Program-made: the position numbers and the translations under genes
Notes under the pieces: model-generated
What the model was told of the DNA's origin: nothing
The model's input: the letters and a program-made list of their open reading frames with translations, nothing else
Databases searched by the model: none
Shown here: positions 32,688 through 35,260 of the stretch, one piece after another
How the letters are laid out: every line of letters starts with the position of its first letter
Position numbering within the stretch: the first letter of the stretch is position 1
NCBI GenBank assembly: GCA_900315245.1
Contig: OMYJ01000003.1
Span: forward strand, 96,121 to 160,120
Direction of reading: 5' to 3'
DNA length: 64,000 nucleotides
Origin: an uncultured Bacteroidales bacterium
GTDB lineage: Bacteria; Bacteroidota; Bacteroidia; Bacteroidales; WCHB1-69

Positions 32688-32737
32688 GCAACCGAGTTGC
32701 AAATATGATCGAAAAGCTGTGTTTGCAACTTGGTTGC
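32688..32737 (+). promoter_or_regulatory. Paired GCAAC-N3-GTTGC operator upstream of the metal ATPase/Fur genes
   Basis: Two palindromes with identical arms, GCAACCGAGTTGC (32688-32700) and GCAACTTGGTTGC (32725-32737), lie 37 bp apart centre to centre. Together they form one larger inverted repeat, because the first is followed by AAA and the second preceded by TTT. The second ends 13 bases before the -7 box at 32751 and so covers the -33 region, the position of a repressor site. The Fur-family protein encoded at the end of the operon is the obvious candidate ligand; this is inference. Confidence 0.65.
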
Positions 32738-32750
32738 GCTTTATTTTCCG

Positions 32751-32758
32751 TACTTTTG
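32751..32758 (+). promoter_or_regulatory. Bacteroidota -7 promoter element
   Basis: TACTTTTG, 55 bases before the ATG of the P-type ATPase gene and directly downstream of the paired operator. Confidence 0.55.
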
Positions 32759-32813
32759 CCTCCGAAAAACGCCAGATAATGCGCCCTGAAAAATACGGAA
32801 AATAAAACGTCTT

Positions 32814-34805
32814 ATGGAACATATTCATCATCATTCAGAAGAATCACACACTCATCATCATGAAGCGTGCGATGGCCACTGCCACAAACACGGGGAGGCA
32901 GGTCATCACCACCATGAGCATAACCAGACGGGACAACTCTGCAGAATTGGTATCACCATTGTTTTGCTTATTGCCGCCGTCATAATCGAGAAGCACTGCG
33001 AACTGCCCACGTGGCAGTTACTGCTGATCTATCTTATCCCCTACTTGTTCATCGGCTTCAACACACTCAAAGAGGCAGCAGAAGGGTTGCTCCATGGAGA
33101 TGCCCTCAACGAACATTTCCTGATGTCGGTGGCCACGATCGGCGCCCTGTGCATCGGATTCCTGCCCGGTGCCGAAACACAATTTCCAGAAGCCGTTTTC
33201 GTGATGCTCTTTTTCCAAATCGGGGAATTTTTCGAGAGCTATGCAGAAGGTAAGAGTCGTGACAGCATCGCTCATTTGATGGACATCCGTCCCGACAGTG
33301 CCAATGTGGAACGCGATGGCGAAGTTGTCACCTTGAAACCCGAGGAGGTTTCCGTGGGTGAGATAATTATCGTCCGTCCAGGTGAAAGAATCCCCCTTGA
33401 CGGGGTGATTCTTGAAGGAGTCTCTTCTTTGAACACAGTGGCTTTGACGGGCGAAAGCATCCCCCGGGAAGTTGGAGTCGGCGATGAGGTGTTTTCCAGT
33501 TGTGTGAACCTTTCGGGAGTCATTCGGATGCGTACAACCAAGAATTTCGGAGAAAGCACCGCATCCAAAATCATCGAGCTGGTGGAAAATGCCAAAGAGC
33601 GGAAATCCAAAAGCGAGACATTCATCACCCGTTTCGCGCGTATCTACACGCCCGTGGTGGTGTTCGCAGCCGTAGTGCTTGCCTTGCTGCCGCCGCTCTT
33701 CTCCGGTCATTTCGCCACCGCTTTTCCTGTCTGGCTATACCGCTCACTGCTCTTCCTGGTGGTCTCTTGTCCTTGCGCCCTGGTCATCAGCGTGCCGCTC
33801 ACCTTCTTCGGAGGTATCGGCGGTGCGTCGCGCAACGGCATCCTCATAAAGGGAGCCAACCATATAGACACACTCTCCAAAATCAGAACCGTGGTTTTCG
33901 ACAAGACCGGGACGCTCACCCACGGACAATTTGCCGTTGAGGCCGTCCATCCCGAAAAATTAGACGAAGAGCAATTGCTGCACCTCGCCGCACATGTGGA
34001 GCATTTCTCCACGCACCCCATTGGTGCGGCCCTTCGCGATGCCTTTCCAAACGAAGCCACCGACGGCTGCTCTGTCACTGATGTGGAAGAGATTGCGGGA
34101 CAGGGCGTACGCGCCCGTGTAGGCGACAAAACCGTCTGCGTGGGCAATGCCAAAATGATGGAAACCGCCGGTATCAAATGGCATGACTGCCATTTGGTCG
34201 GCACCATCGTCCATGTGGCGGTGGATGGCGAGTACACCGGGCACATTGTAATCAACGACCGTATCAAAGAAGACAGTGCGGAGAGTGTTACCCTGTTGAA
34301 GAAACTCGGTGTTAACCGTATTGTGATGCTCACCGGCGACCGCGAAGAGGTAGGCCGGAACGTAGCGGAGAAACTTCAAATCAGCGAGTACTATGCTGGT
34401 CTGATGCCTGCCGACAAAGTGAAACATATTGAACGACTTCAGGGTGAAAAGCACGACAAAGGTGCTGTGGCTTTTGTGGGAGACGGTATCAACGACGCGC
34501 CTGTGTTGGCCCGCGCCGATGTCGGCATCGCCATGGGCGGGTTAGGCAGTGATGCGGCAATCGAAGCAGCCGATGTGGTGCTGATGAACGACAAGCCCTC
34601 CAAAATCGCCCTTGCCATCCGCATGGCCCGCCGGACACTGCGCATCGCATGGCAGAATGTTTGGTTCGCCATCGGAGTCAAGGTTGCTGTGTTGATACTC
34701 GCCGCATTTGGATTGGCCACCTTGTGGATGGCAGTTTTCGCTGACGTGGGCGTGACTGTGTTAGCGGTAATGAATGCGATGAGAGCACTAAAATGTAGAA
34801 TGTAG
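32814..34805 (+). CDS. Heavy-metal P-type ATPase (P1B; Zn/Cd/Co-type exporter)
   Basis: A 663-residue inner-membrane efflux pump. The N-terminus has no CxxC metal-binding domain; instead the first 45 residues are His-rich (HHHSEESHTHHH, HCHKHGEAGHHHHEH). The P-type motifs are complete: TGES (about residue 211), the metal-site SCPCALV in helix 6 (about 315), the phosphorylation site DKTGTLT (about 362), HP locus STHPIGAAL, and GDGINDAPVLARADVG. CPC plus a His-rich tail fits the zinc/cadmium/cobalt group rather than copper. It is probably cotranscribed with the fur-like gene 20 bp downstream, and the paired palindrome upstream would make it metal regulated. Confidence 0.88.
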   Translation: MEHIHHHSEESHTHHHEACDGHCHKHGEAGHHHHEHNQTGQLCRIGITIVLLIAAVIIEKHCELPTWQLLLIYLIPYLFIGFNTLKEAAEGLLHGDALNEHFLMSVATIGALCIGFLPGAETQFPEAVFVMLFFQIGEFFESYAEGKSRDSIAHLMDIRPDSANVERDGEVVTLKPEEVSVGEIIIVRPGERIPLDGVILEGVSSLNTVALTGESIPREVGVGDEVFSSCVNLSGVIRMRTTKNFGESTASKIIELVENAKERKSKSETFITRFARIYTPVVVFAAVVLALLPPLFSGHFATAFPVWLYRSLLFLVVSCPCALVISVPLTFFGGIGGASRNGILIKGANHIDTLSKIRTVVFDKTGTLTHGQFAVEAVHPEKLDEEQLLHLAAHVEHFSTHPIGAALRDAFPNEATDGCSVTDVEEIAGQGVRARVGDKTVCVGNAKMMETAGIKWHDCHLVGTIVHVAVDGEYTGHIVINDRIKEDSAESVTLLKKLGVNRIVMLTGDREEVGRNVAEKLQISEYYAGLMPADKVKHIERLQGEKHDKGAVAFVGDGINDAPVLARADVGIAMGGLGSDAAIEAADVVLMNDKPSKIALAIRMARRTLRIAWQNVWFAIGVKVAVLILAAFGLATLWMAVFADVGVTVLAVMNAMRALKCRM

Positions 34806-34825
34806 AATGTAAAATGTAGAATATT
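34794..34825. repeat. Low-complexity tandem repeat (AAATGTAGAATGT-type)
   Basis: Four near-tandem GTAGAAT/GTAAAAT units fill the end of the ATPase gene and the 20-bp gap before the fur-like start codon. Confidence 0.65.
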
Positions 34826-35260
34826 ATGAATAACGCTAATACAAAGACGATTTCAGATGAACAGACGTTACGGGGAGCTGGCGTCAGGGTGACGGCGGTA
34901 AGACTGATGATATGGCGCACTATCCACCGCGAGTTCTCTGGAATATTCAATCTGGCGGAGCTGGAGCAGAAACTCCCTACTGTAGATAAATCCACTCTTT
35001 TCAGGACATTGGGTTTGCTGAGTGAGAATCATTTGTTAGACACTATAGACGATGGCTCCGGCTCCCAAAAATATTGCATCCGCAATCCCGAAGACCCACA
35101 ATCAGAAATGAAACACGTCCACTTCAACTGCCGGATATGTCATCAGACCGTATGTCTGACGGAAGTCACTTTGCCGGAAGTGACCTTGCCTTCAGGATAC
35201 ACAGTGGAAGACACTGAATACGTAGTGAAAGGGGTGTGTCCCAAGTGTGCAGGCAAATGA
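34826..35260 (+). CDS. Fur-family metalloregulator (Zur-like)
   Basis: A 144-residue repressor. The N-terminal winged helix is visible in GVRVTAVRLMIWRTI and LPTVDKSTLFRTLGLLSENHLLD. The dimerisation domain carries HVHFNCRICHQTVCL and a C-terminal CPKC, giving two CxxC pairs for the structural zinc as in Fur/Zur/PerR proteins. The position behind a Zn/Cd-type ATPase suggests a zinc-responsive role, but the regulated metal is not provable from sequence. It probably binds the paired GCAAC-N3-GTTGC sites and so controls its own operon. Confidence 0.82.
   Translation: MNNANTKTISDEQTLRGAGVRVTAVRLMIWRTIHREFSGIFNLAELEQKLPTVDKSTLFRTLGLLSENHLLDTIDDGSGSQKYCIRNPEDPQSEMKHVHFNCRICHQTVCLTEVTLPEVTLPSGYTVEDTEYVVKGVCPKCAGK

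Follow-up and report, generated by a model that had tools for sequence, protein, structure and literature searches.

A palindromic operator stands at a constant distance from the -7 promoter element of metal-efflux operons in the order Bacteroidales, and it co-occurs with one subfamily of Fur proteins. We found it in a 64,000-nucleotide stretch of DNA from an uncultured member of this order (the window, by which the whole stretch is meant), where it precedes an operon encoding a P1B ATPase and a Fur-family protein. Judged from sequence, this palindrome is very likely where the operon's own Fur-family protein docks. We consider this protein to be, with fair probability, a zinc-type repressor of efflux operons that is released by metal excess. 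The operator, its position and conservation, its co-occurrence with the Fur gene, the genes behind it, and the conservation of the metal ligands were observed here, and from these we infer the binding, the identity of the metal, the repression, and the release.

The region before the ATPase gene contains two exact 13-bp palindromes with identical arms, as a sequence-only reading of this DNA had described: site 1 (GCAACCGAGTTGC, positions 32688 to 32700) and site 2 (GCAACTTGGTTGC, positions 32725 to 32737), neither assigned to a strand. They are the only two exact occurrences of GCAAC-N3-GTTGC in the whole window and stand 37 bp apart, centre to centre. The symmetric AAA/TTT flanks claimed in that reading are present on the inner sides (AAA at 32701 to 32703, 3' of site 1, and TTT at 32722 to 32724, 5' of site 2), but the outer flanks are asymmetric. 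The operator consensus was read as TGCAACY-N-RGTTGCA, which has the 7-1-7 geometry usual for Fur-family boxes, and the data agree with the earlier statement that the motif is unlike AT-rich Fur and Zur boxes. A -7 promoter element of the TAnnTTTG type (TACTTTTG, 32751 to 32758, forward strand), recognized from its sequence and the published consensus, begins after the 13 nt that follow the end of site 2, and the distance of site 2 to the -7 box is fixed in relatives. The housekeeping promoter consensus of Bacteroides is described as TAnnTTTG at -7 and TTTG near -33 (PMC7366714). Because the -7 box begins 13 nt after site 2, this consensus places site 2 over the -33 region, and the overlap proposed from the sequence was thus borne out.

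The first gene of the operon (32814 to 34805, forward strand) encodes a P1B heavy-metal ATPase of 663 amino acids that scored above the cut-offs of TIGR01512 (512.1 bits; cut-off, 313.5) and TIGR01525 and under the cut-off of the copper model TIGR01511. The protein carries a CPC motif (SCPCALV) and a His-rich N terminus, and a profile search for an HMA domain found none in it. The subfamily score and the CPC motif are those of the P1B-2 (Zn/Cd/Pb) type, and a zinc-type substrate is predicted. The Fur-family gene that had been said to close the operon does so, at 34826 to 35260 on the forward strand, just beyond the segment covered by the sequence-only reading. The junction of the two genes (34790 to 34823) contains short direct repeats with TAGAATG-like units.

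The 144-amino-acid product of the second gene matched PF01475 (32.3 bits; cut-off, 23.1) and is the sole Pfam-FUR match of its own 3.05-Mb genome. An AlphaFold2 model of the protein (pLDDT, 86.9; pTM, 0.79) has the fold of a winged helix followed by a dimerisation domain, and its top Foldseek matches were Fur and PerR entries (best E value, 2.0e-08; TM score, 0.63). Residues 112 to 131, which link the final strands of the dimerisation domain, are modelled without a helix. Other Fur-family members have a helix in the matching region, and the aligned Fur and PerR chains are about four residues longer across it. All 39 aligned members of the subfamily contain D or H at position 72, Cys at 84 and/or 86, H97, and H99, together with both CxxC pairs (102/105 and 138/141) and an extra Cys110. 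The sequence thus keeps a Zur-like [D/H]-C-H-H ligand set, of the D-C-H-H type of Mycobacterium tuberculosis Zur (MtZur).

A homology search for the Fur protein in 60 genomes, its own included, identified a close homologue (65 to 88% identity) in 15 genomes of the same genus. In all 15, the ATPase gene is followed by the Fur gene and preceded by at least one exact motif. At three loci of the same genus with a distant homologue (35 to 43% identity), neither the ATPase gene nor the motif was found within 5.5 kb. Scanning genome contigs gave a wider set of loci, the best 80 of 294 relatives, in which rumen Bacteroidales and Prevotella-type bacteria predominate; some of its contigs are identical to contigs of the genome set (checked for L117 and L123), and the two sets are not independent. 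A full linked ATPase gene is present in 37 of these best 80 loci, leaving out one whose ATPase is cut by the contig end (L156), and the operator precedes it in 37/37 (34 exact, 3 with one mismatch). In every one of the 37, [T/C]AnnTTTG starts 26 nt past the operator start, with TA in 32 and CA in 5. A second site, 36 or 37 bp away, occurs in 11/37; the paired operator inferred at first sight therefore stands at the window locus but is not the general form, which is a single site over -33. The centre reads Y-N-R in 44/44 exact sites, with a preference for TTT in the left flank and for [A/G]AA in the right. Over all of the best 80 loci, there were 50 exact motifs versus 1 for an arm-swapped control. 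Three loci (L041, L042, and L044) have an extra GCAACC half-site close before the main operator upstream of the ATPase gene, without a full second palindrome, and the ATPase leader of L043 contains an array of GAGACTT-like repeats.

The Fur gene stands without a linked ATPase in 42 of the best 80 loci, many of them from Prevotella, mostly with no motif nearby. Prevotella-type loci between L132 and L190 (for example, L160 and L187) retain the Fur gene with no linked ATPase, and the motif is mostly absent from their vicinity. In two ATPase-less loci (L166 and L178), an exact motif precedes a gene for an SO_0444-type permease that adjoins the Fur gene and shares 56 to 57% identity with the permease of L264. 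Exact motifs near orphan Fur genes in L165, L168, and L187 lie in coding frames and were set aside.

The number of motifs alone proves nothing, since the exact count in the genome of origin (3 in 3.05 Mb) is close to the number expected from base composition (about 2.9), and we discarded this count as uninformative. The third exact copy in this genome (G000:C16:119755) was dropped as a further target, as it lies in a coding frame. With one mismatch allowed, the window contained 5 sites versus 3.1 in shuffled sequences, and with up to three mismatches to a 17-mer there were 39 sites in the genome of origin versus 18 for the control. A plain 13-mer scan of 60 genomes was abandoned, the control having matched about equally often in most genomes of the same genus. 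A 19-mer (TTTGCAACYNRGTTGCAAA, one mismatch) matched in 12 of 395 genomes of the phylum and its control in 3; since even the genome of origin scores 0 with TTTGCAACYNRGTTGCAAA, the scan lacks sensitivity and is hardly informative for other classes. The case rests on conservation and promoter position, neither of which is explained by chance.

When operator and promoter were combined as TGCAACYNRGTTGC-N13-TANNTTTG with up to one mismatch, the pattern matched in 53 of 295 Bacteroidales genomes, versus none for the reversed control. A control with a changed palindrome in front of this promoter matched in 1/295, and that single match differs from the true operator at one position. With the spacer free to vary from 3 to 30 nt and no mismatch allowed, there were 49 matches, with spacers of 13 nt in 36, 14 in 7, 27 in 4, 25 in 1, and 4 in 1; the four with spacer 27 are opposite-strand readings beside fur genes. 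Membership in the Fur subfamily was defined in these counts as a match below 1e-40 to profile A1, which was built partly from Fur proteins with no operator nearby (L050 and L052). Such a match was found in 64/295 genomes, and the next genome followed after a gap, at 2.7e-35. All 33 genomes in which the exact operator is spaced 13 or 14 nt from the -7 box have the subfamily, and none of the 231 genomes lacking the subfamily has this operator. With one mismatch allowed, 47 of the 53 operator genomes have the subfamily and 6 do not, and 12 of the 64 subfamily genomes have no operator under either pattern. Fisher tests of operator versus Fur subfamily gave very small p values, computed as if the genomes were unrelated.

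The order scan returned 72 rows, which correspond to 70 distinct operator-promoters after removal of two rows (L261 and L264) that read one operator from the opposite strand. Classed mostly by BLAST against one seed each, with a profile check for representatives only, 54 of the 70 precede efflux genes (P1B ATPase, 27; RND, 20; CDF, 5; SO_0444-type permease, 2). The remaining 16 comprise methyltransferase (5), TonB receptor (4), ZIP (1), aldo/keto reductase (1), an exported 159-amino-acid protein (1), and sites with nothing suitable downstream (4), all of the last being one-mismatch sites. Ten loci, four single sites, and site 1 of L240, which lies upstream of a Fur gene followed by the ATPase gene, were classed by hand; the P1B count includes L276, a distant HMA-bearing type that is second in its operon, and L291, which is truncated and stands behind another gene. 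Representatives exceeded the cut-offs for the CusA/CzcA family (TIGR00914), CDF (TIGR01297), and SO_0444 Cu/Zn efflux (NF033936); the ZIP gene matched the ZupT model under its cut-off, and representatives of the TonB receptors and methyltransferases were identified by Pfam. Among exact sites only, 28/36 precede efflux genes. A gene matching A1 is present in the fetched stretch at 25/36 exact sites and 12/34 one-mismatch sites. RND operons behind the operator often begin with genes for small His-containing exported proteins, such as the DUF6769 protein at L241:6996-7427 (minus strand). The methyltransferase genes that follow an operator-promoter (L262:2591-3196, L264:4662-5327, L282:6846-7448, L286:2537-3133, and L290:6880-7515) form two close pairs (55 to 57% identity) and one other.

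These results bear on two proposals of the sequence-only reading. A genome-wide count of the motif gives no enrichment in the genome of origin; across the order, 54/70 operator-promoters stand before efflux genes. The suggestion that the motif is the metal operator of this lineage agrees with its fixed -7 distance before the metal-efflux operons of the order and its co-occurrence with the Fur subfamily.

The genome of origin contains a second operator-promoter (G000:C16:295100-295134; L236) with one mismatch, followed by a small ORF that appears PspC-like by eye and by a gene for a TonB receptor. Relatives of this receptor are found in 34/40 genomes of the same genus, with readable loci in 30. 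A close Fur was defined here as one of the ATPase-linked type (65 to 100% identity), G546 being assigned from the order-wide search with profile A1. In the first count, an operator with up to one mismatch preceded the receptor in 9/12 genomes with a close Fur versus 1/18 others. The outlier, G720, had not yet been searched for Fur; the close Fur was predicted to be present there and absent from G718, and both predictions held. In the final count, the operator is present in 10/13 genomes with a close Fur and 0/17 without, three of these 17 (G015, G027, and G032) having a distant Fur homologue. The three genomes that combine a close Fur with an operator-less TonB promoter are G013, G033, and G034. 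In L316 (G002:C32:25722-28085), the match to the TonB receptor contains four internal stop codons, and the promoter keeps an exact operator.

We propose that the 144-amino-acid protein is probably a dedicated regulator of metal efflux. A Fur dimer would sit on the palindrome TGCAACY-N-RGTTGCA. With site 2 placed over -33, its binding would block RNA polymerase, and the upstream site 1, 37 bp away, might provide extra affinity. The operon would be self-regulated, because it encodes both a zinc-type (Zn/Cd/Pb) P1B ATPase and its regulator. Since the operon serves metal export, its repressor is expected to leave the promoter when metal is in excess. At low metal the protein would occupy the promoter, and it would come off once metal filled the [D/H]72-C84-H97-H99 site or a weaker one, which is the reverse of the metal logic of an ordinary Fur or Zur. 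This logic is sensible, as the targets are mostly exporters whose common metals are zinc-like. Elsewhere in the order, exporters of the RND, CDF, and SO_0444 types may come under the same Fur subfamily and operator. A precedent is known from Corynebacterium glutamicum, in which two exporters are repressed by Zur at low zinc through a site on -35 (PMC6103462). On a more general proposal our confidence is evenly poised: that the order has a Fur subfamily with reversed logic, whose metal-poor dimer would occupy a -33 box of the Nur-like kind until freed by excess zinc-type metal, a single switch for P1B, RND, CDF, and SO_0444 pumps and a TonB receptor that would do the job of ArsR/SmtB and MerR sensors elsewhere.

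A protein of this kind could instead be a metal-loaded activator, the zinc-bound form turning the exporter on from the operator. The -33 TTTG usually stands 19 to 20 nt before the -7 box, and no good TTTG is found at that spacing outside the operator, which speaks for activation. Precedents come from Xanthomonas campestris and Streptomyces coelicolor, where Zur activates genes for exporters (PMC6103462; PMC5472717). Against this, the operator covers the -33 region itself, with constant spacing to the -7 box, whereas the activating site of S. coelicolor is described as lying upstream of -35 (PMC6103462), and we regard activation as unlikely.

An ordinary co-repressor, whose metal-bound form represses as Zur does, would leave the operon on at low metal or serve metal delivery to the periplasm. 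Its Zur-like ligands would suit such a role, and TonB receptors and a ZIP gene behind the operator are what control of uptake predicts; the TonB receptor fits poorly with simple efflux logic and keeps this alternative alive. The 54 of 70 sites before P1B, RND, CDF, and SO_0444 exporters speak against it, since induction of exporters at low metal makes little sense, and we give it somewhat less weight than activation. Slightly more doubtful still is a PerR-type oxidant or thiol sensor, in which oxidation of thiols or of the metal site would free the protein and turn metal export on. The invariant additional Cys110 and Cys84/86, and the presence of PerR among the closest solved structures, are in its favour. 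The sensory ligand His37 of Bacillus subtilis PerR is replaced by Gly39 in the window protein, that position is His in only 1/39 aligned sequences, and the genes targeted serve metal export, all of which argue against such a sensor. Least probable of all is that another regulator binds the palindrome: 33/70 sites have no subfamily gene in the fetched stretch, but the gene is present somewhere in every genome with the exact operator at 13/14, and within the genus the operator stands at TonB promoters only in genomes with a close Fur.

Already known are the Fur family, P1B pumps, and boxes like that of Nur. Searches of open-access PMC titles and abstracts, some of them by partial term matches, found neither this operator nor an efflux-controlling Fur-family protein in Bacteroidetes, nor a Fur subfamily encoded within several kinds of efflux operon with a single order-wide operator and promoter position. 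The present analysis gives a large gut and rumen lineage a defined operator, a candidate regulator, and a regulon for metal export. It makes testable the idea that metal excess can be sensed by a Fur-family protein whose metal site is Zur-like, and the rule that the operator stands 13 nt before TAnnTTTG predicts targets genome by genome.

The releasable repressor proposed here resembles MtZur (2o03) in its profile match (E value, 6.8e-8) and in D72, H97, and H99, which align with D62, H81, and H83 of MtZur; these three and C76 are presumably its zinc ligands. The Cys position differs, being +1 after Tyr83 (C84) in the subgroup of the window protein and +3 (C76) in MtZur, as also in other subfamily members, and the further His80 and His82 of MtZur are not His here. 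Har of Porphyromonas gingivalis is likewise a Fur-family protein of the same phylum with two CxxC pairs (PMC4222909). As described there, Har has no sensory-site HxH, binds hemin, and ends in a Lys-rich tail (PMC4222909), whereas the protein studied here has the HxH and is without such a tail.

The S. coelicolor Nur box reads tTGCaa-N5-ttGCAA (PMC3919588). Nur and the present system share the Fur family, TTGCAA arms five bases apart, and a box over the promoter (PMC3919588). The inner arms and the spacing agree, and the outer arms are degenerate, with 2 mismatches each to TTGCAACYNRGTTGCAA at both window sites. Unlike in Nur, CYNRG occupies the five central positions, and the genes behind the operator are mostly metal exporters. 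The Zur proteins of C. glutamicum, S. coelicolor, and X. campestris are also Fur-family zinc regulators that act on exporter genes (PMC6103462; PMC5472717). These three are described as controlling uptake as well, and their operators are of other types, among them a 10-1-10 direct repeat, a 59-bp GC-rich site, and a Zur box (PMC6103462; PMC5472717). In contrast to those systems, the regulator here is encoded inside the efflux operon, and one operator precedes four classes of exporter.
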